The notes beneath the pieces were generated by a model. The model did not search any database and was not told the DNA's origin. It worked only from the letters and a program-made list of their open reading frames with translations. The translations under genes were made by a program, and so were the position numbers. Positions 1 to 13,264 of a stretch of 64,000 nucleotides of DNA are shown here, in pieces. The first letter of the stretch is position 1. Each line of letters begins with the position of its first letter. The stretch comes from Thermanaeromonas toyohensis ToBE (GTDB lineage Bacteria; Bacillota; DSM-521; Neomoorellales; Neomoorellaceae), in contig NZ_LT838272.1 of the NCBI RefSeq assembly GCF_900176005.1, positions 1,941,587-2,005,586 of the forward strand, written 5' to 3'.

Positions 1-1661
1 GCTTCTTTCTGAACAACTTCTCCGATGGTAGTAATGTCCCGGAGGACATTCATTATCTGCTCCTGGATACCTTTTACCATTTCTTTAATCTGTTCAGCGT
101 TACGGGCACTCTCTTGGGCAAGGTTGCGGATATCTGAGGCCACCACGGCAAACCCTTTACCGTACTCTCCTGCCCTCGCCGCTTCTATAGCTCCGCTTAC
201 AGCCAGCATGTTGGTCTGGATACTTACGCTGGCAATTGTATCCACTATTTTATCTATCATCCGGGCGTTTCGCTCAAGTTGGTTGACCTTCTGTACGTTC
301 TCAAGGTTAGTCGATGCCGCCCGTCTTATGCCTTCAATAAGCTCATTCACCCTTACTTTATTAGCAGCCAGCAGGTCATTAAGCTCCTGTGTTGCTACTT
401 TAGACTCTTCTGCTTCCTTGGCAATTACCCCCATGGATCTTTCTATTTGTTTGATAGCACTAGAGGCTTCTTCGGAAGCCGAAGCCTGTTGCTCTGCCGA
501 CTTCGCTATTTGATTTAGAGCTGCGTTGATCTCTTCTGCTGAACGGCTGGCCTCTTCAATTGCTGAGGATAATTCTTCCGCTGCTGCTGCAAGAGACTCG
601 GCTGATTTAACGATATCAGTTGAATGCTTAAGCGTATCAGCTAGATCTGCTAAATTATTGGTACTAGCACTTATCTCGGCCAGCGCATGGGCCTGCTGCT
701 CAACCCCTTGTAAAGCTTGCTCAGTTGCGCTGGCTTGCTCTTCAGCAGTAGCTGCTATTTGCTCGCTTCCCTTTTGGAATTCAGCCACTGCCTTTTCTAC
801 TTCAGTAATTAGCTGTTCGATCCTAGTTGCACTCTCTACTACGTTGACTACGGAGCTAGCTATCTTCTTAAGCTCATCAGTTATAACTTTGCCCTTTTCT
901 GTTTCACCTCTAGCTACCTCGGCTGCTTTATTAATAGCTTCCGCCACTATCCGTACATCTTCTTGCACGCTATCCACTATCTTCCGTATATCACTGGCTG
1001 CTTTCTCGGAAGTTTCTGCCAGGGTCCTTACTTCGTCGGCTACTACGGCAAAACCACGGCCGTGTTCCCCAGCCCGTGCGGCCTCAATCGCAGCATTTAG
1101 AGCCAAAAGGTTAGTTTGGTCAGCGATCCTTACGACAGTCCTAACAATCTCACCAATCTTGGCCGCTTCTTCTTCCAGCCTTGCCACCAGTCTGGCCGAT
1201 TCTTCGCTTCTAGCAGCGCTATCGTCTACACCTTGGATCAGTTCTTCGATGTCTTGAGATGTGCGGTTTACTAAATCCCTTATGGCTTCACAACGGGACA
1301 GCGACTCCCGTGCCTGCTTTACAGAGATTTTCGCCGCCTCGCCAATAACCTGTATGGCAGCCAAAGACTGCTCGGTAGCACTGCTAGCCTCCTGAGCTCC
1401 GCTGGCTATTTGTTCCATAGCGCTGCGCAATTCTTCTACAGCACTTGAAGCCTGTTCAACTCCAGAAGAAAGTTGTTCTGTTGCACTAGCTATCCGCTCA
1501 GCTATCTGTTGCTGCTTGGCAAAGGTTCGAGCCTGCCTCCTGCGCGCTTCTATCTCTTTCTTATCTCCCTCCTTTACTAGTTCAGTCTTAGAAGTATCCC
1601 TATATACCCCTCGGCTGCCCGTAGGTAAAGGTTCTAATGTTTTGGTAGAGGTAATAGCCAT
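1..1661 (-). CDS. Soluble methyl-accepting chemotaxis protein with two tandem signalling domains (3' end outside window)
   Basis: Chemoreceptor signalling protein expected to control a CheA/CheW array. Read in the minus strand, the frame is open from ATG at 1661 (AAGGAGG about 10 nt upstream) to the window edge, about 553 residues. There is no transmembrane segment, so it should be cytosolic. Two MCP hairpin tips are visible: the first near residues 170-210 ([20 protein letters not shown], then [12 protein letters not shown]) and the second near residues 480-520 ([20 protein letters not shown], then [12 protein letters not shown]). The rest is Ala/Ser/Glu/Gln-rich heptad coiled coil. No sensor domain is visible in the N-terminal 60 residues. 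The gene lies behind a c-di-GMP riboswitch and terminator, so its transcription is probably set by c-di-GMP. A ligand domain could follow beyond the edge. Family call is firm; the signal is unknown. Confidence 0.93.
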
Positions 1662-1744: not shown

Positions 1745-1784
1745 AAATAAGCTTAAAATAAAAGGGAGCACGTTTCTGCTCCCT
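1745..1784 (-). terminator. Intrinsic terminator in the MCP leader (riboswitch expression platform)
   Basis: On the minus strand GGGAGCA and TGCTCCC form a 7-bp stem around a 6-nt loop, followed by TTTTATTTTAAG. It lies between the aptamer and the receptor start codon, as in a transcription-terminating riboswitch. No obvious competing antiterminator with the P1 strand was found for this copy. Confidence 0.75.
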
Positions 1785-1789
1785 CCTAC

Positions 1790-1890
1790 CTCGATGCACC
1801 GGCAGCCTGGCAGCCTTAGCTTAGATCCCGCCTTAGGCCCATGACTTTGCGCCCCGCCCTTTCGAACGGTTTGCCCTTCTCGGTGCAGAT
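1790..1890 (-). promoter_or_regulatory. c-di-GMP-I (GEMM) riboswitch aptamer upstream of the MCP gene
   Basis: The minus strand carries the GEMM signature in order: AGGGCAAACC, a GAAA tetraloop helix, GGGCGCAAAG, GGGCCTAAGG, then the GCC...GGCTGCCGG receptor helix. The outer P1 helix is explicit: TGCACCG near 1881-1887 pairs with CGGTGCA near 1795-1801. This copy is diverged from the other two aptamers in the window. Known ligand of the family is c-di-GMP (some members bind cGAMP). Confidence 0.88.
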
Positions 1891-1959
1891 AACGTACCTT
1901 TCCTGTAGCCTTCTAACTTACTCAGCCCTTATCTCTTATTTTATTTTGCTGTTATTTTA

Positions 1960-2041
1960 TTCGACATTATGTCTAAAAATCCTCTTTTTAAGTTAAAATT
2001 ATCCCTTGCATTGTTTGAAGATCAAGGAGAAATTTGTCGAA
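1960..2041. promoter_or_regulatory. Two candidate Spo0A boxes upstream of the MCP riboswitch
   Basis: TTCGACA at 1960-1966 is the reverse complement of the 0A box TGTCGAA, and TGTCGAA itself is at 2035-2041. Both are in the intergenic region between the fapA-like stop and the MCP riboswitch. A 7-mer this short occurs by chance several times in 64 kb, so support comes only from intergenic clustering. Confidence 0.3.
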
Positions 2042-2080
2042 AAACCGCAGGTATTTTGGCCGCCCTGAATCCAAGCTCTT

Positions 2081-3853
2081 TTACCTCCAAGGTATAACAT
2101 CTATTTCACCTTCCGCGTTAAGGCGAAGCCTTATTTTTCTTTCTTCCCTGGTGAAGGGATAGATTCGGACACCTATTTTTACAAAACTATTTTCATAGGC
2201 ATGTTCGATAGTGACTACGCCTTTTTCCTGTACCGTGACTGTACTTTTGGCTCCGCCCCGGGTGCCCAGTTCCCTTACGTACACATCCTCTCCTGCCTTT
2301 ATTTCCCCGCCTCTAAAGGCGCCATGGATTATAACCTTTTTTCCTGCTTCGATATAAGAATTGTCACAACCTATACGGCTTACAGTTACGCTTCCTGAGG
2401 CGATAATTTTGGAGTTAAGCACATAGCCCACAGTCACGTTGCCGTTTTCTGTTTTGTCCTGGATTTGAATATGGCCTAGCAATTCCATAGCCTCATTGTA
2501 CAGTTCCTCTATCTCTTCGATGCTGACTATGGCAAGGGGTAGGCGTACTAACTTATACTCCATGTTATTTAAAAACCGGGTGAGGGGAGGATACTCAAAG
2601 GGGAGCTTCTTGACGTACTCTCTAAGGACCTGAATAGATGCTGGAATACCAGGATACTTCCGTTCAAGCAACAATTTGACTAAAGGGCCGATGGTGCTTC
2701 CTGTGTACTTCTCTTTAAGCTGGTTGAGGGCCAGAAATAGCTCTTCTATCTGAGATGATATCCTCTTTAGGAGGGGAAGACCGTTCCTTAGGAGAGCGAA
2801 CTTCTCTCCAGCGATTATAGTTGAAGCGTGGACGTTGCCCTTGATCACTACAGAATCCTGGGCTTTGATACTGGCTCCAGAAACCGTGCCCTCTATGACG
2901 GCGCTTTCTCCCGCTTCGACCCGCATCCCCTCTAGTACATTACCCTTGACTATAATATCGCCTGCAAATATGATGTGACCAGAGGACTTATCGACGTCTT
3001 CATCGTGATGCAATACATTAATGATCTTTATCTCCATTCCTCTAGGTATATGGATGGCTACCGGCCTACCTGGTTTGGCAGCTACAACTTCTAATCCTTC
3101 CTTTGTTAATGTAGTGCCCTCCCCAGCTTTCAAGGCTACATCTTGGGGTTCGGGGGGAAGGATTATATTTCCTTTTAGATCCCGGCCAGGTTTTCCAGGT
3201 TGAGCAGGATGCTTGCGGGCGAGAACCTGGCCTGGTACGGCAGAAGTATAAACAAAACGCTGGAGCAAGTCTACTTTCTCTTCCGTAGAGCCCTCTATCT
3301 TTATTTTTTCCTCTAAACTGAAAAGGAGTTCAATTTTGGCATCTTGACCAGGTTCTGGAGGGGTACCTCTAGCTATAATTACTTCTTTCTCTTCTGGGTT
3401 GACAAACAGGCTCCTTATAGTTTCCCAATCGATACCATGTACGACACCTAGTTGTCTCAGTTTATCGGTTAATTCACCCAACGTTACCGGTGATAGAACT
3501 TCCTCAATAGGTATTCCTTCTAACCTTAAGATTCGGGCCGGAGGGGAATCTTTAAGAACATATCTGATACGGCGATAGGGTTTTAATTTTAATATCGCCA
3601 CCATGTTATCCGGAGTTACTTCTAGAGACCAGCTCCCTTCACTCTCTTCTGTCAAGGTAGTAACCACCACATGGTCGTGGACAGTAACAGGGATGGGCTG
3701 GTTAATCTCGAGATATTCCCGCTCGTTTACTTGTAGTTTTACTCCCGGCCCCAGGACAACAACAGGATAAGGGCCGTCAGGGGGATGGTGTACTAGAAGC
3801 TTTCCCCCTTGCAAAGCCGCATATACCGAAAGATTATCATAATAAGTGTTCAT
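2081..3853 (-). CDS. FapA / DUF342 family protein
   Basis: DUF342 (flagellar assembly protein A-like) protein, 590 residues. The family is built of a variable N-terminal region and a long polymerising-type beta-helix; its biochemical role is not settled, but it is linked to motility and surface signalling in Gram-positives. Visible here: N-terminal domain to about residue 200, then the conserved proline/glycine-rich PGKPGRDLKG stretch, then alternating valine/glycine repeats of a right-handed beta-helix (for example AGDIIVKGNVLEG, IEGTVSGASIKAQDSVVIKG), a helical insertion near 360-450 and further beta-helix to the end. No signal peptide, so cytosolic. A c-di-GMP riboswitch with terminator precedes it, making it a c-di-GMP-controlled gene. 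Downstream lies the MCP transcription unit in the same direction. Confidence 0.9.
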   Translation of the reverse strand: MNTYYDNLSVYAALQGGKLLVHHPPDGPYPVVVLGPGVKLQVNEREYLEINQPIPVTVHDHVVVTTLTEESEGSWSLEVTPDNMVAILKLKPYRRIRYVLKDSPPARILRLEGIPIEEVLSPVTLGELTDKLRQLGVVHGIDWETIRSLFVNPEEKEVIIARGTPPEPGQDAKIELLFSLEEKIKIEGSTEEKVDLLQRFVYTSAVPGQVLARKHPAQPGKPGRDLKGNIILPPEPQDVALKAGEGTTLTKEGLEVVAAKPGRPVAIHIPRGMEIKIINVLHHDEDVDKSSGHIIFAGDIIVKGNVLEGMRVEAGESAVIEGTVSGASIKAQDSVVIKGNVHASTIIAGEKFALLRNGLPLLKRISSQIEELFLALNQLKEKYTGSTIGPLVKLLLERKYPGIPASIQVLREYVKKLPFEYPPLTRFLNNMEYKLVRLPLAIVSIEEIEELYNEAMELLGHIQIQDKTENGNVTVGYVLNSKIIASGSVTVSRIGCDNSYIEAGKKVIIHGAFRGGEIKAGEDVYVRELGTRGGAKSTVTVQEKGVVTIEHAYENSFVKIGVRIYPFTREERKIRLRLNAEGEIDVIPWR

Positions 3854-3895
3854 AGAATCTTTTACCCCTCCTGGCCGTCTTTAGCCGGCTGGGCC

Positions 3896-3935
3896 AAAAA
3901 CAAAACACCAGGAGCACCCGCCTTGCACCTGGTGT
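3896..3935 (-). terminator. Terminator of the fapA-like riboswitch
   Basis: On the minus strand ACACCAGG (3935-3928) pairs with CCTGGTGT (3912-3905), followed by TTTGTTTTT. It follows the aptamer by about 10 nt, between aptamer and start codon. The sequence preceding it (CCACACC) can pair with the aptamer's GGTGGGG strand at six of seven positions, which would be an antiterminator. Confidence 0.8.
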
Positions 3936-3944
3936 GGTCGCTTT

Positions 3945-4042
3945 AAGGCCCCCACCGGCAACCCGGCTGCCATAGCCCTTAAAAGCCTTAGGCCCGTGGC
4001 TTTGCGCCCCCGCCTTTCGGCGGGTTTGCCCTTAAACGGTAG
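3945..4042 (-). promoter_or_regulatory. c-di-GMP-I (GEMM) riboswitch aptamer upstream of the fapA-like gene
   Basis: Full GEMM signature on the minus strand: AAGGGCAAACC, CCGCC-GAAA-GGCGG helix, GGCGCAAAGCCACGGGCCTAA, then the GGCTATGGCAGCC and GTTGCCGGTGGGG receptor part. Positions 3950-4035 are identical over 86 nt to the aptamer at 9091-9176 on the other strand. Confidence 0.93.
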
Positions 4043-4070
4043 GTTATAAGACCCCATGATGTTTAAGTAA
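4043..4070 (-). promoter_or_regulatory. Predicted sigma-A promoter for the fapA-like riboswitch transcript
   Basis: Minus strand: -35 TTACTT (4070-4065), 16-nt spacer, -10 TATAAC (4048-4043). Transcription would start a few bases before the aptamer. Confidence 0.5.
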
Positions 4071-4189
4071 GCTCTCGACAGGCTCTTCTATTTAGAAGAT
4101 AGCATAGTTATTGCTTGCTAATCAAGCATAATTCTACCTTAGAGTAAAGCTCCCTCTAGGATCGTCAGGCTATTTAGGGATTGGCGTCT

Positions 4190-5878
4190 CTAGCAGATAA
4201 TCTCTGGAGAAGGCTTTCCAAAATAGTATCCCTGGCAAAGGTTTACTCCGAATCTCTTGAGTATATTACAGGCTTCTCCTGTCTCCACCCATTCAGCAAT
4301 GGGTTCTATAGCTAGGCTACGCAAAAGCGCTGCAATATGTTCGACTATCAATTTACATCTGGCACTCCGTGTAATATCTCTTATCAAGGAGCCTTCTATC
4401 TTTACAAAGTAACAGTCAAACTGACGTAGGTAGAGGAAGGAAGAAAAGCCGCTGCCAAAATCGTCTAAAGCGAGCCTCATGCCTGCATTCTGCAAATGGG
4501 TAGCAAATATGTGCACCCTGCTGACATCCCTTATAGCCTGTCTTTCGGTTAACTCAGCCACTAGCCTGTCTGGTCTGATTTTATGAGACTTAAGCAGGGA
4601 TAACAGTTTAGGTACAAGGTCTTCGCGCTCAACCTCCTGCAGGGCAAAGTTGACAAAGATCAAATATTCGGTATCTGTCTGGGTAACTTTCCAAAGGGCT
4701 TTTTCTAAGCACCTCTCCGTGAGGCTGTGTATAATATTTATGTCTTCGGCAAGTTCCGCAAAGGCTGCTGCCGGGAATATGCGGCCTTGATACTGGATTC
4801 TGGCTAGCACCTCGTAGCCTATGATATTTCCAGTTTCTATATCCACAATGGGTTGAAAATAAGGGATTACTCCTTCCGGTTTCTGGATAGCTTCCCTTAA
4901 GATAAGGCTTTTTTCGTGAAGCAACGTCAGATCTGTTGTTCCTGCATTTACATCTAGTATTACCGTCCGATTCTTTCCTAAGCGCTTAGCTTTTAGAGTA
5001 GCCATCTCCGCAGCGGCTAAGAGGTCGTTGGCAGCCGTCCCATGTAGAGGGTAGCAAGATATACCGATGCTCACCGTGACCCCAAACTCTTCCTCGATAG
5101 GTCGTTGCTGCTCTACAATTTGCCGAAAACTTTCAGCCATAGATAGAATCTCAGGGGTGTCTCTGCCTAGGACTATTACTCCAAAAGAATTACTCCCTGT
5201 CCTTGCCAATATACTCCCAACAGGAGCAAAGACTTCCTTCAAAACCTCAGCTACTACTCGTAGAACAGCATCACCTACTGCATATCCATAAAGATCATTG
5301 ATTACCTTCAAGTCATCTACATCAGCCCAAATAAGAATGAGATTTTCTTTGTGATGTTTGGCGTATTCTAGGGCCGTATCCAATTCTCTTTGAAAGTGTT
5401 CGCGGCTTAGAAGGCCGGTCAAGGGGTCTGTTTCGGAAAAGATTTTTAACATCTTTAGCGCCTCATCGTGATATCCTAAAGATACACATCCTAGTTCTAG
5501 CATGGCCCCTACAAGGAGGTCCTTTATGTCCTGCCCGTTTCCTAACGAACGATGAGTACGAATATAGTCGTTAATAAAGGTATCGGCTAAAGCTATCAAT
5601 TCCCGCAATACTTGCTCATTGGGTATCTCCTGGGTATACAAGAGACGTCCAATGTCTACAGCCTGTTGACAGGCATCCAGAAAGCAGGAAATATCACGTA
5701 CGGACTGGTGGATTTTCTCAAGCAAAACCCTGAGGTTCGAACTCAATTCGGGATTTAAAGGGGTACCTTCATATTTTCCTTGAATTATACCTAAAAGTTC
5801 AGCGAGGAAATTCTTAGAAAGCATAAATTTGTACCTACAAACCTCACTTTCCACCTTCAAGTTTATTTTCATCGGCAC
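4190..5878 (-). CDS. GGDEF-EAL protein, probable c-di-GMP phosphodiesterase
   Basis: 562-residue cytosolic protein with an N-terminal helical region (about 1-145), a GGDEF domain (about 150-310) and an EAL domain (about 325-560). The GGDEF active-site signature is replaced by GSNSF (228-232), so cyclase activity is unlikely; such domains often sense GTP. The EAL domain keeps its catalytic set: EVL (356-358), N410, E442, DDFGSG (472-477), K493, E532 and QGYYFGKP. It should hydrolyse c-di-GMP to pGpG. Last gene of the stressosome operon, overlapping the preceding cyclase gene by 35 nt; an ATG at 5824, 20 nt after the cyclase stop, is an alternative start that removes the overlap. Context pairs one cyclase with one phosphodiesterase under a single stress sensor. 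Confidence 0.9.
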   Translation of the reverse strand: MPMKINLKVESEVCRYKFMLSKNFLAELLGIIQGKYEGTPLNPELSSNLRVLLEKIHQSVRDISCFLDACQQAVDIGRLLYTQEIPNEQVLRELIALADTFINDYIRTHRSLGNGQDIKDLLVGAMLELGCVSLGYHDEALKMLKIFSETDPLTGLLSREHFQRELDTALEYAKHHKENLILIWADVDDLKVINDLYGYAVGDAVLRVVAEVLKEVFAPVGSILARTGSNSFGVIVLGRDTPEILSMAESFRQIVEQQRPIEEEFGVTVSIGISCYPLHGTAANDLLAAAEMATLKAKRLGKNRTVILDVNAGTTDLTLLHEKSLILREAIQKPEGVIPYFQPIVDIETGNIIGYEVLARIQYQGRIFPAAAFAELAEDINIIHSLTERCLEKALWKVTQTDTEYLIFVNFALQEVEREDLVPKLLSLLKSHKIRPDRLVAELTERQAIRDVSRVHIFATHLQNAGMRLALDDFGSGFSSFLYLRQFDCYFVKIEGSLIRDITRSARCKLIVEHIAALLRSLAIEPIAEWVETGEACNILKRFGVNLCQGYYFGKPSPEIIC

Positions 5879-6665
5879 AAACTACTTTATTTTTACCCTC
5901 CCTTTTAGCCCTGTACATAGCTTCGTCAGCACGGGCGATAAGCTCGTTTACAGATATAGCCCCTTTACCCTGGTATTCTACTGCACCTATACTTACAGTT
6001 ATGGTAGTCTCAACCTCTGGGACTAAGGCGGTAGTGGCGATCTGGGTTCGTATCCTTTCTAAAGCGATCTGGGCTTTGTCTAGGTTTGTTCCTGGCAAAA
6101 TAACCAGGAATTCTTCTCCACCGTAGCGGATGACTTTATCGCCGCCCCGCAAGCTTTTCTTTATAATTTTTGCTGCCGTACGCAGAGCTTCGTCGCCTAC
6201 GTAGTGACCGTATCTATCATTTAATGCTTTAAAGTTGTCTAAATCTACCATGGCTATTACTAGAGGGGTATTTTTTTCTTGAGATTCCTTTAGTAGCTGA
6301 TTGAGTAATGGATAAAGCGCTAGCCGGTTGTAAAGCCCTGTTAAGGGATCATGCTCAATACGGTCTTTAAGCTGGAGAAGAAATGTATCTATGACTACAA
6401 GGATCTGAGCCAGAAATTCCGTAGCCCTGTCGATGTAGATCCATTGGATAGAATCGCTATCCCGGCGGATACCCATAATCTCGCGCAAGGCTCTAGTGTG
6501 AATATCTAGGATATTCGCTGCTTGTACATGATTATCGTCGAGCTCGTGGGTAAGATCCTGGTAGGCTTCCAGAAGGACCCCTTCTGTCCCTCCTTCACAA
6601 ACATACCGCTCTAAGTAGTTTTTATAGGTGTTATAAAAATCTTGTGATATCAAGATTGTCCCCAC
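5844..6665 (-). CDS. Stressosome-output diguanylate cyclase (RsbU-N-like domain + GGDEF)
   Basis: Makes c-di-GMP from two GTP. 273 residues. Residues 1-95 are all-helical and resemble the N-terminal RsbT-binding domain of the RsbU phosphatase (pattern around LTHELDDNHVQAANILDIHT). Residues about 105-265 form an intact GGDEF domain: DPLTGLYNR, DLDNFKALND, GGEEF at 182-186, and the product-inhibition I-site RGGD at 173-176, five residues before GGEEF. Published Moorella thermoacetica work describes the same arrangement, in which the RsbT-like kinase activates a cyclase instead of RsbU. It overlaps rsbX upstream by 16 nt and the EAL gene downstream, so the genes are tightly coupled. Function assignment is strong; direct RsbT binding here is inferred. 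Confidence 0.92.
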   Translation of the reverse strand: MGTILISQDFYNTYKNYLERYVCEGGTEGVLLEAYQDLTHELDDNHVQAANILDIHTRALREIMGIRRDSDSIQWIYIDRATEFLAQILVVIDTFLLQLKDRIEHDPLTGLYNRLALYPLLNQLLKESQEKNTPLVIAMVDLDNFKALNDRYGHYVGDEALRTAAKIIKKSLRGGDKVIRYGGEEFLVILPGTNLDKAQIALERIRTQIATTALVPEVETTITVSIGAVEYQGKGAISVNELIARADEAMYRAKREGKNKVVCADENKLEGGK

Positions 6666-7264
6666 CTCCTCCCAATAAGGATACTGGCGTCATCTTCCTC
6701 AATACCGTAATCTTTTAGGATACCCTTAGCTAATTCCATTCCTTCGTTAGAGATGAGCAGGTGTTCCTTCGAAGGAACAAAGCTTCGCCTTATTCCATCC
6801 GAACATATCCAAAGGGTAGAATTAGGCCGCACTCTTATTTCCCGGGTTATCGGCAAAAGCTTTCGAGCTCCCACGACACCTGGCTGGGCATATAATACTT
6901 CTATTTTTCCTGGTTCTTGGAAAACCCAGCCGCGCATGTTTCCTACCATAATATAAGTTACCACTGGACCTGAAAAAGAGCCAAGAAAAAGAGCACAGCC
7001 CCTGTGGCGGGCTGCAGTAGTTTCTAACTTTGCAAATAGTATCCTTAAGTTTTCCTCATGTTTGCGCATCACATTTAAAAGCTCGAGGGCACATCGGTGA
7101 GCTTCCTCCCCGTGGCCGAGGACATCTATAACCGAGGTAATAAGAGTATTTTGCGCTGCAAACATATAGCAGAGGTCGCCCCCGACTTTATAACCTGCCT
7201 TTGGTCTCCAAGAGCTCCATAAGCTCCATCCATGGGCGTGCAGATCTTGGGAAGATAATTTCAA
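6650..7264 (-). CDS. rsbX: RsbX-like PP2C phosphatase of the stressosome
   Basis: 204-residue SpoIIE/PP2C-type serine/threonine phosphatase. Metal-binding motifs are visible: VGGDLCYMF near residue 28, VIDVLGHG near 46, CSDGI near 153 and DDASILIG near 191. In the family RsbX resets the stressosome by dephosphorylating RsbS and RsbR. It starts with an ATGA overlap on the rsbT stop and its end overlaps the cyclase start, giving translational coupling. At about 200 residues it is a bare catalytic domain, as expected for RsbX rather than RsbU. Confidence 0.88.
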   Translation of the reverse strand: MKLSSQDLHAHGWSLWSSWRPKAGYKVGGDLCYMFAAQNTLITSVIDVLGHGEEAHRCALELLNVMRKHEENLRILFAKLETTAARHRGCALFLGSFSGPVVTYIMVGNMRGWVFQEPGKIEVLYAQPGVVGARKLLPITREIRVRPNSTLWICSDGIRRSFVPSKEHLLISNEGMELAKGILKDYGIEEDDASILIGRRWGQS

Positions 7265-7722
7265 AACTTGCGCCTCCTTTTTGCTGTGATAACTACTGTG
7301 CCCTTGCCCACTTTAGAATAGATAGTAAAGGAATCCATGAGGCGCTTTACACCTGAAAGTCCTATGCCTAGGCTGCGCTCATAGGTAGTGTATTCTCGGG
7401 TAAGAACTACCTCCACATCAGGGATGCCCGGGCCGCGATCAGCAGCGATGACTTCTATGCAGGGGCCCTCCTTCTCTTCTTTTTTCCTTATCATTATTCG
7501 TCCTTGGCTAGCGTAGCGATATATATTGCGGGCCAGCTCGGAGACAGCGGTAGCGATTTTAGTAACATCAGCTAGCGAAAATCCCGTTTCCTGGGCTAGT
7601 TGTTTTGCCATCTGCCTGGCTATCGCTATATCCTCTTCGCGGGTTATACGGACCACCACATCAAATTCATGTCCAGGATTATCCAGGATGGCTTCTATTT
7701 TGTCTACCTTATCTGAAGCCAC
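7261..7722 (-). CDS. rsbT: RsbT-like switch serine kinase
   Basis: GHKL-fold serine/threonine kinase, 153 residues. N-box AVSELARNIYRYA (about 59-71), G1 box ADRGPGIP (about 93-100) and G2 box GIGLSGVKRLMD (about 117-128) are all present. In stressosomes RsbT is held by RsbR/RsbS, phosphorylates them on stress, and is released to activate its target. No sigma-B, RsbV or RsbW gene is nearby; the next genes encode the phosphatase and a cyclase with an RsbT-binding-type domain, so the likely target is that cyclase. Confidence 0.93.
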   Translation of the reverse strand: MASDKVDKIEAILDNPGHEFDVVVRITREEDIAIARQMAKQLAQETGFSLADVTKIATAVSELARNIYRYASQGRIMIRKKEEKEGPCIEVIAADRGPGIPDVEVVLTREYTTYERSLGIGLSGVKRLMDSFTIYSKVGKGTVVITAKRRRKF

Positions 7723-7735
7723 TTCTTATCCACTC

Positions 7736-8089
7736 CTATAGGGAACTAGCCAACACTAAAGCATGTTCCAGATCTCGAGCTACTGTGAGCTCCTCCAATA
7801 CTATACCCATTTGGGCTAGGGTTAGGGCTACTGGAGGCTGGATGCCGCACAAGATGGTGCGGCATCCCATAAGTCTAGCCATGGCAGCGGTCTCAGAGAG
7901 GGTATAGGAAATATAACTATCTATCACTTCAACCATACGGACATCAAGAATTATAGCTTTGGCCCTGGTGCGCTCAATTTCATCCATGAGCTGCTGCTGT
8001 AGTTTCCCTACTGTCCGGTCATCTAGATCTATCTGGATAGGCACTAATAAGAAATCAGCTATTCTAAGGACGGGTACTACTTTTTCCAA
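7736..8089 (-). CDS. rsbS: RsbS-like STAS scaffold protein
   Basis: Single STAS-domain stressosome core protein, 117 residues from a TTG start at 8089. An upstream in-frame ATG at 8119 would overlap rsbR by 29 nt. TTG is preferred because AGGAGG lies about 10 nt upstream, the rsbR stop is directly upstream, and the product then starts like other RsbS proteins. Ser58 in VIDSYISYTL matches the RsbT phosphorylation site (Ser59 of Bacillus subtilis RsbS). Fourteen nt separate it from rsbT. Confidence 0.9.
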   Translation of the reverse strand: MEKVVPVLRIADFLLVPIQIDLDDRTVGKLQQQLMDEIERTRAKAIILDVRMVEVIDSYISYTLSETAAMARLMGCRTILCGIQPPVALTLAQMGIVLEELTVARDLEHALVLASSL

Positions 8090-8090
8090 G

Positions 8091-8843
8091 CTAGGAGACC
8101 TCCTCCTCGCTATTCTCATAGACCTTACTTCCAGCCAAGGTTAAAGCGAGGTGGCGTCGTTTTCTAGCTTCTTCCATGGTAATGGCAATACCACGCCGTA
8201 GGGCATCCTCTAGGTCACGAGCGATAGAGACCATCCGGAAATCGACGCCTAGCTTGACCAGGGTATGAGCAACCTCCGGCTTAATACCGGTAAGTATCAC
8301 TTCTGCCCCCAGTAGTCTTATGGCATTAAACATTTCTATTAAGAATCCACCTACTACTGTATCGATCATGGGTACACCAGTAACATCTACTATAACAACT
8401 TTAGCACGAGCCGAGCTTACTCGATTTAACAATTTTTCCGCTATATCTTGGGCCCTCTGGCTATCGATGTTCCCAATCATGGCTACCAGCAGCATATCTG
8501 TCCATATCCGGATTATGGGGGTGGCGAGTTCAGAAAGCATCTGTCTTAACTGGGAGAGTGTTTCTCTTTGTTCCTGGCGTAAGCTTGCTGAAACTTTGAT
8601 AGCCTGCTGCATTACCTCAAGCACAGGATATTCTGGTATCTCTTGGGTTATATGTATAAGCTTTTCGGTTACCTGCTCTTCGCCTAATTCCTCTATCAAC
8701 TCCCGGAGTGCTCGCGAGAGACTAGTTTCCTTTTCTTTTTCCTTTAAATTAGAAAGGGGTATCTCTACTAATTGTCTCCATAGTGCCACGTCACCTGTAT
8801 TGGCGAGTTTCTTAATTAGTTCTTCGGCCTTATTCATACCCAT
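8091..8843 (-). CDS. rsbR: RsbR-like stressosome sensor/co-antagonist
   Basis: 250 residues: N-terminal helical sensor region (about 1-105) without a recognisable globin or PAS fold, then a STAS domain (about 108-225) and a charged C-terminal tail. Thr162 (in GVPMIDTVV) and Thr194 (in EVAHTLVKLG) align with the two RsbT-phosphorylated threonines of RsbR (Thr171 and Thr205). First gene of the six-gene operon. The input signal cannot be read from sequence; the N-terminal domain should be the sensor. Confidence 0.92.
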   Translation of the reverse strand: MGMNKAEELIKKLANTGDVALWRQLVEIPLSNLKEKEKETSLSRALRELIEELGEEQVTEKLIHITQEIPEYPVLEVMQQAIKVSASLRQEQRETLSQLRQMLSELATPIIRIWTDMLLVAMIGNIDSQRAQDIAEKLLNRVSSARAKVVIVDVTGVPMIDTVVGGFLIEMFNAIRLLGAEVILTGIKPEVAHTLVKLGVDFRMVSIARDLEDALRRGIAITMEEARKRRHLALTLAGSKVYENSEEEVS

Positions 8844-9014
8844 TTTTTTCTTCCCTCCATATTAAGCAAGGTCATCATAAAAAATTAAAAAAATGTTTGG
8901 AGACCAATTTTAGACTTAATTCTACACCAAACTCTTTATTCCTCCTCAAGTTATTGCCTTGAAACCCGTTTGCTTTTAGGCCCGACTAGGCTTTCGCTAG
9001 GAAAAACTAGGGAT

Positions 9015-9043
9015 TTGTTAGGAGGAAAGGTTATTGCTATACA
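9015..9043 (+). promoter_or_regulatory. Predicted sigma-A promoter for the HD-sensor riboswitch transcript
   Basis: TTGTTA (9015-9020), exactly 17 nt, TATACA (9038-9043). It lies about 40 nt before the aptamer, in the divergent region between rsbR and the HD gene. Confidence 0.55.
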
Positions 9044-9074
9044 GTGGATTGTATGATATGTTAAAGATGAACCT

Positions 9075-9182
9075 AAATACCGCCCCTCTGTTAAGGGCAA
9101 ACCCGCCGAAAGGCGGGGGCGCAAAGCCACGGGCCTAAGGCTTTTAAGGGCTATGGCAGCCGGGTTGCCGGTGGGGAGGAGT
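9075..9182 (+). promoter_or_regulatory. c-di-GMP-I (GEMM) riboswitch aptamer upstream of the CBS-PAS-HD gene
   Basis: Same GEMM signature as at 3945-4042, with 86 identical bases (9091-9176). A P1 helix can be drawn between CCGCCCC at about 9080-9086 and GGGGAGG at 9173-9179 with one mismatch. The 3' P1 strand GGTGGGGAG (9170-9178) is perfectly complementary to CTCCCCACC (9252-9260), which overlaps the terminator. This predicts that ligand binding favours termination (an OFF switch). Confidence 0.93.
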
Positions 9183-9251
9183 TTATACTTTTACTAAAGC
9201 TTCTAGTAAGTTAGGCTGTTAAGTTAAATATATTAAATATATTCGTTCTGG

Positions 9252-9292
9252 CTCCCCACCAGGGTTGGTATTTATGCCTGGTGTATTTTTTT
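9252..9292 (+). terminator. Terminator/antiterminator platform of the HD-sensor riboswitch
   Basis: CACCAGG (9257-9263) pairs with CCTGGTG (9277-9283), followed by TATTTTTTT. The competing partner CTCCCCACC (9252-9260) shares bases with the 5' arm and matches the aptamer 3' strand over 9 bp. Confidence 0.82.
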
Positions 9293-9338
9293 CATTAACC
9301 TAAACTATTTTAGGGTTTGGGGTGATAGGAGTAAATTT

Positions 9339-11174: not shown

Positions 11175-11537
11175 ATGATAGGTAAGCGTTTGCGGTTTTA
11201 TCGACAAAAAAAGCGATTAACTTTGAAGGATGTAGAAGAGATAACTGGATTGCATGCCACTACCATCTCTGGATACGAACGTGGGATACGTGAACCCTCG
11301 TATAAAGTTTTGCGCACTTTGGCTAAGGTCTATGACATCCCGGTAGCTTATTTGCTTTTAGAGGAAGAAGAAATAATGGAAGTAATACCTTCGGAGATAA
11401 AAGAGCTTGTAGCTCTTATAGAGAAGCGGCCCGAGATTGGAGAGTTTATAGAGGAAATAAAAAATTACCCCCAGTCTCTGGTCAGGGAGCTGCGGCATGT
11501 TCTCCAGAGGATAAGGCGCCTTTCCTTACCTAAATAA
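11175..11537 (+). CDS. Xre-family transcriptional regulator
   Basis: 120-residue DNA-binding protein with an N-terminal HTH (about 4-58: LRFYRQKKRLTLKDVEEITG, then HATTISGYERGIREPS) of the SinR/Xre type and a C-terminal helical region (about 70-115) that may mediate dimerisation. AGGAGG lies upstream of the ATG. SinR-type regulators often govern the motile-to-sessile choice; its position between the c-di-GMP island and motAB fits that but does not prove it. Confidence 0.85.
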   Translation: MIGKRLRFYRQKKRLTLKDVEEITGLHATTISGYERGIREPSYKVLRTLAKVYDIPVAYLLLEEEEIMEVIPSEIKELVALIEKRPEIGEFIEEIKNYPQSLVRELRHVLQRIRRLSLPK

Positions 11538-11629: not shown

Positions 11630-11685
11630 AAAGATGGCCTAAAACATTTAATTAAAGGATTTTAAGTAAGGGGGTAGGTTTTGCC

Positions 11686-12486
11686 TTGGACATTCTGGTT
11701 CCAGTCGGTATGCTCATAGGCTTTGGTTCGTTGCTTATGGCTTTCCTCCTGGAGGGAGGGCACTTAACTTCCCTAGTGGGTGTCTCCCCTTTTCTTATTG
11801 TGTTTGGAGGGACCATCGGGGCCACCCTTATAGGTTTGGGGTTAGAGGAAGTACGTTCTCTTCCTGGGCTCCTCAAGGCCGTCCTAGCCAATAAAAAATA
11901 TGATCTCATGGAGACCATTGAACGCTTAGCAGAGTATGCAGTTATAGCCCGTAGGGAAGGATTCCCAGGGTTAGAGAAGCAACTGGAGGACACAACCGAG
12001 CCTTTTTTGCGCACGGCTTTACAGCTTGTGGTGGACGGCACGGATCCCGAATATACTAGAGCCATATTAGAGCAGTACATATACACTACCTCGGAACGCC
12101 ACGCTAAAGGGGTAAAAATATTTGAAGCCGCTGGCGGATATGCCCCTACTATGGGGATCATAGGTACGGTGATGGGGCTGATACACGTGCTTAGCAATAT
12201 CAGCACTCCTGACAAACTCGGGCCTTCGATAGCTTTAGCTTTTGTGGCCACCCTTTACGGTGTTTCTACTGCCAACCTTATATGGTTGCCTATAGCAGCT
12301 AAGCTTAAGGCCAAGTCTGACAAAGAAAGGATTTACCAAGAGTTGGTAGTTGAGGGTGTACTGGCCATCCAGGCCGGGAAGAGCCCCACTGCTCTGCGAA
12401 CTGCATTGTTAGCCTTCCTGTCTCCTGGCAAGCAGCAACAGATGCAAAGGCAGCCTGTAAAGGAGGCTCAGATGGGTGAGGTATAA
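11686..12486 (+). CDS. motA: Flagellar stator protein MotA
   Basis: 266-residue membrane stator subunit that forms the proton or sodium channel with MotB. Four hydrophobic segments are visible (about 4-22, 30-50, 147-170, 180-200). The conserved start (MDILVPVGMLIGFGSLLMAF), FGGTIGATLIGLG and GYAPTMGIIGTVMGLIHVL are typical of MotA. The frame opens with TTG at 11686, preceded by AAGGGGG. It overlaps motB by 11 nt. Confidence 0.95.
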   Translation: MDILVPVGMLIGFGSLLMAFLLEGGHLTSLVGVSPFLIVFGGTIGATLIGLGLEEVRSLPGLLKAVLANKKYDLMETIERLAEYAVIARREGFPGLEKQLEDTTEPFLRTALQLVVDGTDPEYTRAILEQYIYTTSERHAKGVKIFEAAGGYAPTMGIIGTVMGLIHVLSNISTPDKLGPSIALAFVATLYGVSTANLIWLPIAAKLKAKSDKERIYQELVVEGVLAIQAGKSPTALRTALLAFLSPGKQQQMQRQPVKEAQMGEV

Positions 12487-13264
12487 GAGGGCAACAGAAG
12501 AAGGCCACGACAATAAAGAGAGATGGCTTCTGACCTATTCAGATCTTATAACCTTGCTTATGATCTTCTTTGTGGTGATGTACGCCATAAGCGACACTAA
12601 TACCAAGAAACTTGCTGCCCTCGCCCATTCTTTAACCCGAGCTTTGATAGGAACACAGGCTTCAGGGATCTTCCAGGGAGAAGGTGCCAGTGTGGTCCCT
12701 GGGATCCCGGAGATCGGCCCAGCCCAGGGTTCTACAGAGGCAGCTCCAAATGAAGGAGAGAAGGGGGCTGCTTCCCCCAGTTTGGACCAAGTAGCCCAAG
12801 ATTTGGGGAAATTGGTGAGCGCTTCTGGACTGGGCCAGCAGATCACCATCACTCAGGAGGAGCGGGGCGTAATTGTGAGGATGGCCGAGACTGTACTGTT
12901 TCCTAAAGGTTCTGCCGAGCTTACTCCCCAAGCGCGGGAACTTATAAGTAAGGTAGGGAAAATGCTCGCACCGTTACCTAATTACTTGCGTATAGAGGGT
13001 CACACAGATAATCTCCCCATTTATAACGTTAATTTTAGAACCAATTGGGAGCTGGCTGCTGCCCGAGCCCTGACTGTGTTGCATGTGCTAGTCAACGAGA
13101 GTGGTATCAGTCCTGAGCGGCTTTCTGCTACAAGCTATGGTGAGTTCCGCCCTTTGGTACCTAACGATAGCGAAGAGAATATGGCCAGGAATCGGCGGGT
13201 GGATATAGTAATACTTAAAGAGAACTTCAACGCTGTAGAACCTCACCAAGAGGCTAAACAGTGA
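12476..13264 (+). CDS. motB: Flagellar stator protein MotB
   Basis: 262 residues. N-terminal single membrane helix (about 18-40) contains the proton-binding aspartate context LLTYSDLITLLMIFF. A linker rich in Gly/Ala/Glu is followed by an OmpA-like peptidoglycan-binding domain (about 125-250: RIEGHTDNLPI, NRRVDIVI). GTG start at 12476 with AAGGAGG 9 nt upstream inside motA, so translation is coupled. Other flagellar genes are not in the window. Confidence 0.95.
   Translation: MRYKRATEEGHDNKERWLLTYSDLITLLMIFFVVMYAISDTNTKKLAALAHSLTRALIGTQASGIFQGEGASVVPGIPEIGPAQGSTEAAPNEGEKGAASPSLDQVAQDLGKLVSASGLGQQITITQEERGVIVRMAETVLFPKGSAELTPQARELISKVGKMLAPLPNYLRIEGHTDNLPIYNVNFRTNWELAAARALTVLHVLVNESGISPERLSATSYGEFRPLVPNDSEENMARNRRVDIVILKENFNAVEPHQEAKQ

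Follow-up and report, generated by a model that had tools for sequence, protein, structure and literature searches.

The locus

The window examined here is a stretch of 64,000 nucleotides from Thermanaeromonas toyohensis ToBE, a heat-loving anaerobe for which the searches returned Moorella-like bacteria as the nearest relatives (G000:C1:1941587-2005586, part of a 3.33-Mb single-contig genome; coordinates are window-based unless marked as genome positions or preceded by a locus (L) or genome (G) handle). It contains an island in which a minus-strand operon, encoding a stressosome (RsbR, RsbS, RsbT and RsbX), a diguanylate cyclase and a GGDEF-EAL protein, sits between three riboswitch aptamers of the cyclic di-GMP (c-di-GMP)-I class. 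The parts of the island are as follows:

1..1661 (minus strand; 3' end cut by the window): soluble chemoreceptor (methyl-accepting chemotaxis protein, MCP); full gene L044:9305-11248:-, MCPsignal 224 bits
1797-1884 (minus strand): c-di-GMP-I aptamer of the MCP/chemosensory operon; RF01051 73.3 bits, RF03167 64.3 bits
2081..3853 (minus strand): FapA-family protein, FapA_N plus FapA beta-solenoid; 132 and 90.6 bits
3954-4040 (minus strand): c-di-GMP-I aptamer of fapA; RF01051 90.1 bits
4190..5878 (minus strand): GGDEF(degenerate)-EAL protein, probable c-di-GMP phosphodiesterase; EAL 184.5 bits
5844..6665 (minus strand): diguanylate cyclase of 273 residues, helical N-terminal domain at best distantly like RsbU_N, plus GGDEF; GGEEF and RxxD
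6650..7264 (minus strand): RsbX-like PP2C phosphatase; SpoIIE 26.9 bits, matches to PDB 3zt9 and RsbX 3w40
7261..7722 (minus strand): RsbT-like switch kinase; HATPase_c_2 46.3 bits, orthologues in conserved operons
7736..8119 (minus strand): RsbS-like STAS scaffold protein; PDB RsbS chains, E down to 3.5e-25
8091..8843 (minus strand): RsbR-like STAS protein with a short N-terminal sensory region; STAS match
9086-9172 (plus strand): c-di-GMP-I aptamer of the HD gene; RF01051 92.4 bits
9339..10691 (plus strand): CBS-PAS-HD protein, conserved partner of the rsb-cyclase operon; domain matches and orthologues

An earlier note on this DNA had listed a stressosome, a cyclase, an EAL phosphodiesterase and three riboswitches (on a chemoreceptor, a FapA protein and an HD sensor), and all of these were found by profile and covariance-model matches; the parts list is confirmed with respect to the presence and class of every part, the gene order and the recurrence of the parts in relatives. 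The interval proposed for them (1745-9300) does enclose the aptamers, but the chemoreceptor gene (1661 leftwards) lies outside it and runs off the window.

The two STAS proteins (RsbR and RsbS), the RsbT kinase and the RsbX phosphatase are all encoded within one operon, in which the cyclase and GGDEF-EAL genes share a 35-nucleotide overlap. Candidate phospho-acceptors can be read from the translations (VIDSYIS in RsbS; MIDTVVG and ILTGI in RsbR), and are presumed to correspond to the serine and threonine phosphorylation sites of the Bacillus subtilis RsbS and RsbR proteins. None of the genes that were called around the island could be recognised as one for a sigma factor (sigma-B included), RsbV or RsbW, in agreement with what had been said of its neighbourhood, although no genome-wide search for them was made.

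Three aptamers of the canonical c-di-GMP type

Aptamers were identified with the c-di-GMP-I model of Rfam (RF01051, using cmscan), at a cut-off of 35 bits. Within this class, nucleotide 20 bears on ligand type, c-di-GMP or cyclic GMP-AMP (cGAMP) (PMC6456294). All three island elements are full-length matches to the model, with scores far above the cut-off, and their alignments display a G at model position 10, an intact CGCAAAG core and a closing C. Because the equivalent of G20 (which we take to be model position 10, the other ligand-contact positions likewise being drawn from general knowledge) is a G, and because the core is intact, all three are by sequence aptamers of the canonical c-di-GMP type, for which ligand binding is predicted; their scores and ligand residues bear out the class to which the earlier note had assigned them. 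Two other assignments were rejected: specificity for cGAMP, on the basis of the G found at the nucleotide-20 equivalent in three of three, and membership of the element at 1797 in the ‘GGC’ variant family (RF03167), since its core reads CGCAAAG and RF01051 describes it with 73.3 bits, against 64.3.

The genome contains eight c-di-GMP-I aptamers, three of them in the island and five elsewhere. Finding three of eight inside 7.4 kb is expected in 0.084% of random (uniform) placements (p ~8e-4), a value that overstates the independence of the elements since one of the HD and fapA aptamers is a copy of the other. Positions 3950-4035 and 9091-9176, which correspond to the aptamer core of these two riboswitches, form a perfect inverted repeat of 86 nucleotides across a distance of 5 kb, outside of which the flanks and terminators of the two leaders differ. 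The HD aptamers of two related genomes (G005 and G006) are 89% alike mutually and 77% like that of the island, and the fapA aptamer of the island is 91% like its counterpart in G017. This combination of local identity and more distant likeness points to recent copying of one aptamer onto the other, in either direction, through duplication or gene conversion.

Leaders and candidate expression platforms

Elements that might couple ligand binding to transcription were found downstream of each aptamer, and are most complete in the leader of the HD gene:

9083..9090 (plus strand): 5' strand of P1 of the HD leader (CCCCUCUG), pairing with 9169-9176 (CGGUGGGG)
9170..9178 (plus strand): 5' strand of the HD-leader anti-terminator (GGUGGGGAG), pairing with 9252-9260 (CUCCCCACC) and overlapping the 3' strand of P1
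9257..9291 (plus strand): intrinsic terminator of the HD leader (CACCAGG...CCUGGUG plus U-tract), mutually exclusive with the anti-terminator
3905..3935 (minus strand): intrinsic terminator of the fapA leader (ACACCAGG...CCUGGUGU)
1755..1792 (minus strand): intrinsic terminator of the MCP leader (GAGGUAGGAGGGAGCA...UGCUCCCUUUUAUUUU)

The anti-terminator of the HD leader overlaps both the 3' strand of P1 and the terminator stem, such that the helices exclude one another, and in folds computed without ligand the anti-terminator form is the lower in energy (-80.3 kcal/mol, versus -67.6 for P1 plus terminator). Because of this exclusivity and this order of energies, the HD leader is predicted to be an ‘OFF’ switch, in which ligand would shift the leader towards termination. 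By inspection, the terminator stems of the corresponding leaders in G005 and G006 begin with a sequence (UACC, UGCC) to which the P1 3' strand (GGUA) can likewise pair. The evidence for a platform thus grades from clear exclusive helices in the HD leader, through a weaker case for fapA, to the MCP leader, where the terminator alone is clear; the fapA leader probably switches as the HD leader does, to OFF, with the direction less evident there and in the MCP leader than in the HD leader.

The cyclase, the probable phosphodiesterase and the proposed link to RsbT

The GGDEF domain of the cyclase retains an intact GGEEF active site, RxxD I-site and NDxxGHxxGD motif, and the enzyme appears, by these motifs, to be catalytically competent. 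In GacA, residue S347 is the position used for comparison with Hypr-type enzymes (PMC6456294). The GGDEF-EAL protein displays the EAL motifs (EVL, N, E, DDFG, K, E and Q) and lacks a GGDEF motif, reading TGSNSF in its place; it is a probable c-di-GMP phosphodiesterase, and the designation ‘EAL phosphodiesterase’ was apt for its EAL motifs, which look intact, but passed over a degenerate GGDEF domain in the same chain. A Hypr-type (cGAMP) identity for the island cyclase was considered and rejected, as its NDRYGHYVGD motif, onto which S347 of GacA is presumed to map, keeps the Asp.

The N-terminal domain of the cyclase is more difficult to place. RsbU_N, at a score below threshold, is the sole Pfam match to this part of the protein and is also matched in eight of 12 orthologues (best E 0.0046), and a profile of the domain, compared with the PDB, aligns in register with RsbU N-terminal domains at weak E-values of 0.24-0.74. 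Comparison by hhalign with the N-terminal domain of the related ‘MtG’ type of cyclase (discussed below) gave a probability of 7.7% and no convincing match, and a Foldseek search with a model of the cyclase returned cyclases alone, for the GGDEF half, without resolving the N-terminal domain as RsbU. The domain would appear to be a distant relative of RsbU_N at best, and we infer the contact between RsbT and the cyclase by homology to the system of Moorella thermoacetica.

Comparative anatomy of the protein module

Orthologues of the rsbR-S-T-X-cyclase array are found in Desulfofundulus, Desulfovirgula, Moorella sulfitireducens, Fervidicola, Thermovorax, Thermoanaerobacter, Caldanaerobacter and others, and in nearly all of the loci found the cyclase follows rsbX. 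The HD gene adjoins the rsb-cyclase genes in L012, L013, L015, L017, L018, L021, L022 and L073, and the chemosensory operon does so in L012, L017, L021, L022, L034/L085 and L073; one or both of these partners stand next to the array in Desulfovirgula, Fervidicola, Thermovorax, Caldanaerobacter and G054, in genomic settings that differ. Because the same protein partners recur in different settings, the protein supercluster (rsb-cyclase, HD and chemosensory genes) suggests a real functional unit. Within the class, the HD family is present in five of 22 genomes: G000, G005, G006 and G013, all of which carry the rsb subtype of the island, and, as fragments, G017. A helix-turn-helix protein of the Cro/cI type (11175..11537, plus strand; domain match) is a recurrent neighbour of the cluster in L012, L073 and L085.

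The HD protein possesses HDLAK and HHHNEE motifs and an HDIG-type metal site, together with CBS and PAS sensory parts; a GYP motif was not found in an alignment of seven orthologues, which places the protein outside the HD-GYP group. A Foldseek search with its model returned CBS pairs and PAS/histidine-kinase sensors alone, and for the HD domain no near relative of solved structure was found. The operon behind the chemoreceptor (L044:2415-11248; genome 1934414-1943247) continues left beyond the window in the order MCP, CheW (three copies), CheB, HEAT-repeat protein, CheR, CheY, CheA core and Hpt/P2, with CheB assigned by eye from its translation and CheA split into a kinase core and an Hpt-P2 protein encoded by separate genes; the third aptamer therefore heads a chemosensory operon rather than one gene. 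No strongly hydrophobic (transmembrane) segment was found in the chemoreceptor sequence, in keeping with a soluble protein.

Riboswitches in relatives

In G005 (L034) and G006 (L036), an aptamer and the HD gene are arranged divergently from rsbR, with the aptamer driving the HD side, as in the island. The HD reading frame of G005 contains one stop; in G006 a short open reading frame resembling the FapA N-terminus (E 4.5e-4) lies between the aptamer and the HD gene, and the orthologous chemoreceptor (84% identical to that of the island) has an aptamer of its own. G006 also contains two converging HD-family genes (L036:12907-14019 and 11648-12910), one of them following a truncated CheW and the chemoreceptor that bears the aptamer. 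No aptamer was found in G013, where rsbR and the HD gene are separated by a gene resembling a transposase (of IS110 type, judged by eye). In G009 and G011 an aptamer lies upstream of rsbR on the same strand, before a secreted protein with a Cu_amine_oxidN1 domain (L042:12568-12655 and L041:2634-2721); the cyclase of G009 was tested and is of the published, GAF-containing type, and that of G011 is its close homologue. Aptamer-bearing FapA genes without adjoining rsb genes are present in G004 and G017.

A survey of c-di-GMP-I (GEMM) motifs near rsbRST-GGDEF loci, of the kind suggested by the earlier note, found an aptamer above the cut-off within 10 kb of rsbT in six of ten genomes of the family, against 0.53 expected (p ~3e-6); when clades are collapsed, p ranges from 6e-5 to 0.03 depending on the representative. 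Most relatives outside Moorellaceae that possess the rsb-cyclase module, in many cases together with HD and chemosensory genes, have no aptamers near it. The protein module thus appears to be the older part, and the aptamers a lineage-specific layer that was either gained by it or retained on it. Homologous loci lacking riboswitches, which had been named in advance as evidence against a link, are thus the rule among those distant relatives, but the aptamers are not thereby spurious.

Other elements are found further afield. In Desulfovirgula and Desulfofundulus a weak aptamer (36.4 and 28.3 bits, the former in one Desulfovirgula metagenome-assembled genome) lies directly ahead of rsbR, where it may provide c-di-GMP feedback on the stressosome operon. 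At L009:9742-9834 this element is followed by a terminator-like hairpin, and it is degenerate in L011 and at G280:C14:42181-42273. In G054 an aptamer of 83 bits (L084:7126-7213) is carried by another chemoreceptor; it lies ~16 kb from rsbT, shortly beyond the chemosensory operon, which in that genome comes after rsb-cyclase-HD.

Relation to known systems

A stressosome-MtG system of M. thermoacetica was reportedly described by Quin et al. in 2012 (Structure). As that system is cited in PMC12143880 and PMC4976288, its stressosome controls a GGDEF cyclase, and it resembles the island in the order rsbR-S-T-X followed by that cyclase. The published type is carried by G014, whose RsbX matches PDB 3zt9 over 193 of 193 residues (418 bits). 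An MtG-type cyclase comprises RsbU_N (68 bits), GAF and GGDEF domains in ~439 residues, whereas the island enzyme is shorter (273 residues), lacks the GAF domain (present in the L042 and L043 proteins) and has a divergent N-terminal domain. The link to M. thermoacetica drawn in the earlier note is therefore supported by homology, but the island cyclase cannot be equated exactly with the one described there. The nearest aptamer in G014 is 13.4 kb from rsbT, with none within 10 kb, whereas the island has aptamers on three leaders, and has a GGDEF-EAL gene, an HD gene and a chemosensory operon joined to the module.

Other comparisons are more distant. Proteobacterial ‘RSTX’ modules similarly place a stressosome before GGDEF, EAL or HDc signalling proteins, but belong to a different phylum and employ a haem-globin RsbR, and the section of PMC9237108 devoted to them does not mention riboswitch readers. 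The sigma-B stressosome of B. subtilis shares the arrangement of RsbR, RsbS, RsbT and RsbX followed by a target; in the island the output is a cyclase, and sigma-B, RsbV, RsbW and the RsbU phosphatase were not recognised at the locus. Relative to ordinary c-di-GMP-I (GEMM-I, RF01051) riboswitches, which they resemble in being full-length with canonical ligand residues, the island elements differ in their number at one locus, in their position beside a stressosome-linked cyclase and phosphodiesterase, and in that two of them are inverted identical copies. A search of the available literature returned no paper on a stressosome combined with a c-di-GMP riboswitch, and none on Moorella, riboswitches and chemotaxis together; an earlier mention in Quin et al. 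2012 is possible. The island is best described as a stressosome-cyclase system that has c-di-GMP riboswitches as its local readers, an arrangement that some members of one family have conserved.

A proposed stressosome module with local riboswitch readers, and its alternatives

The account favoured here, with a probability of roughly 0.55, is that, in Moorellaceae, a c-di-GMP module under stressosome control has acquired c-di-GMP-I riboswitches as local transcriptional readers. RsbR and RsbS would keep RsbT bound until stress induced their phosphorylation; freed RsbT would then engage the helical N-terminal domain of the adjoining cyclase and raise c-di-GMP, which the co-transcribed GGDEF-EAL protein would break down, and RsbX would return the stressosome to its resting state. 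The messenger would bind all three aptamer-bearing leaders, and in that of the HD gene (and probably that of fapA) ligand would lock P1, leaving the terminator free and the gene off. We infer also that the island cyclase is a major source of the c-di-GMP seen by the local RNAs; ligand binding and the OFF direction have the same standing. The roles of stressosomes in bacteria without sigma-B are largely open, and if the riboswitches do report stressosome output on neighbouring genes, the island would represent a stressosome whose transcriptional readout is built in and requires no sigma factor. The CBS-PAS-HD protein and the soluble chemosensory operon would in turn be two uncharacterised partners of stressosome-cyclase modules, through a link apparently older than the riboswitches.

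Several observations weigh against this account. The RsbU-like, RsbT-binding domain that had been proposed for the cyclase is matched, yet at 14.7 bits it falls short of the Pfam cut-off of 25.5. The fapA and MCP leaders each have a terminator, but fold analysis revealed no clear competing anti-terminator in either. If each clade is represented by its least favourable genome, the association between aptamers and rsbT is weak (p ~0.03); four genomes of the same family (G010, G012, G013 and G014) have no above-cut-off aptamer within 10 kb of rsbT, and neither do any of 15 rsbT-containing genomes outside it. Finally, the genome encodes ~18 GGDEF domains and two EAL domains and has its five further aptamers elsewhere, which speaks against a private circuit; the ‘closed’ module originally envisaged is not supported, and the local readers must therefore be exposed to the c-di-GMP of other cyclases as well, barring spatial confinement of the messenger.

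The number of GGDEF domains also favours a less probable competitor, in which the aptamers belong to an ordinary genome-wide c-di-GMP-I regulon that reads the global level of the messenger, and owe their proximity to gene clustering and local aptamer copying. Chemoreceptor, FapA and motility genes are typical targets of c-di-GMP-I riboswitches, and the other aptamers of the genome include the following:

L052 (genome 963390): before a chemoreceptor
L053 (genome 992654): before a flgB-type flagellar operon
L055 (genome 2387996): before a PilC/type IV pilin-like operon
L056 (genome 15014): before an HD-GYP-like gene

The presence of aptamer-bearing FapA genes apart from rsb genes (G004 and G017), and the single 86-nucleotide sequence shared by the HD and fapA aptamers, fit a shared pool as well. 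It accounts less readily for the recurrence, in three genomes from two genera, of an aptamer and HD gene placed alike and divergently from rsbR (even though the HD aptamers found in G005 and G006 are just 77% like that of the island), or for the six of ten family genomes with an aptamer near rsbT.

Two further readings are each rather unlikely. The first extends the favoured account into a self-referential stress circuit, whose members would be the stressosome, the cyclase, the phosphodiesterase, the CBS-PAS-HD protein as effector and a chemosensory array that is soluble and dedicated. The messenger made at the locus would be read there by the riboswitches of the circuit's output genes, with copying within the island homogenising the aptamers; if true, it would constitute a stress response without a sigma factor, running from sensor to transcript by way of c-di-GMP and RNA alone. 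The second makes the HD protein a homeostatic component, exerting feedback on c-di-GMP or the stressosome (as a modulator or a phosphodiesterase, for instance), its riboswitch then being feedback and not output. The adjacency of the HD gene to cyclase or rsb genes in many lineages, with or without an aptamer, its HDIG-type metal site and its CBS/PAS parts are consistent with such a role, and the weak aptamer ahead of rsbR in Desulfovirgula and Desulfofundulus would itself be feedback, but the protein has neither a GYP motif nor a close solved relative of its HD domain. That the cyclase is merely co-transcribed, and that RsbT relays the stressosome signal to something else (the HD protein, for instance), is quite improbable: the sub-threshold RsbU_N match, an HD fragment directly after rsbT in L020 and the existence of bacteria whose downstream proteins lack RsbU_N and are perhaps phosphorylated instead (as discussed in PMC9237108) would allow it, but the position of the cyclase after rsbX in nearly all loci, and the fact that RsbU_N is the one family matched at its N-terminus, in eight of 12 orthologues and, at weak E-values, in register with solved RsbU domains, argue otherwise.

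A further chemoreceptor aptamer

Another c-di-GMP-I aptamer of the genome (L054:4801-4890; genome 2326800-2326889, minus strand) is carried by a chemoreceptor 56% identical to that of the island. Its nucleotide-20 equivalent is not a G but an A, which in Geobacter is associated with a preference for cGAMP.

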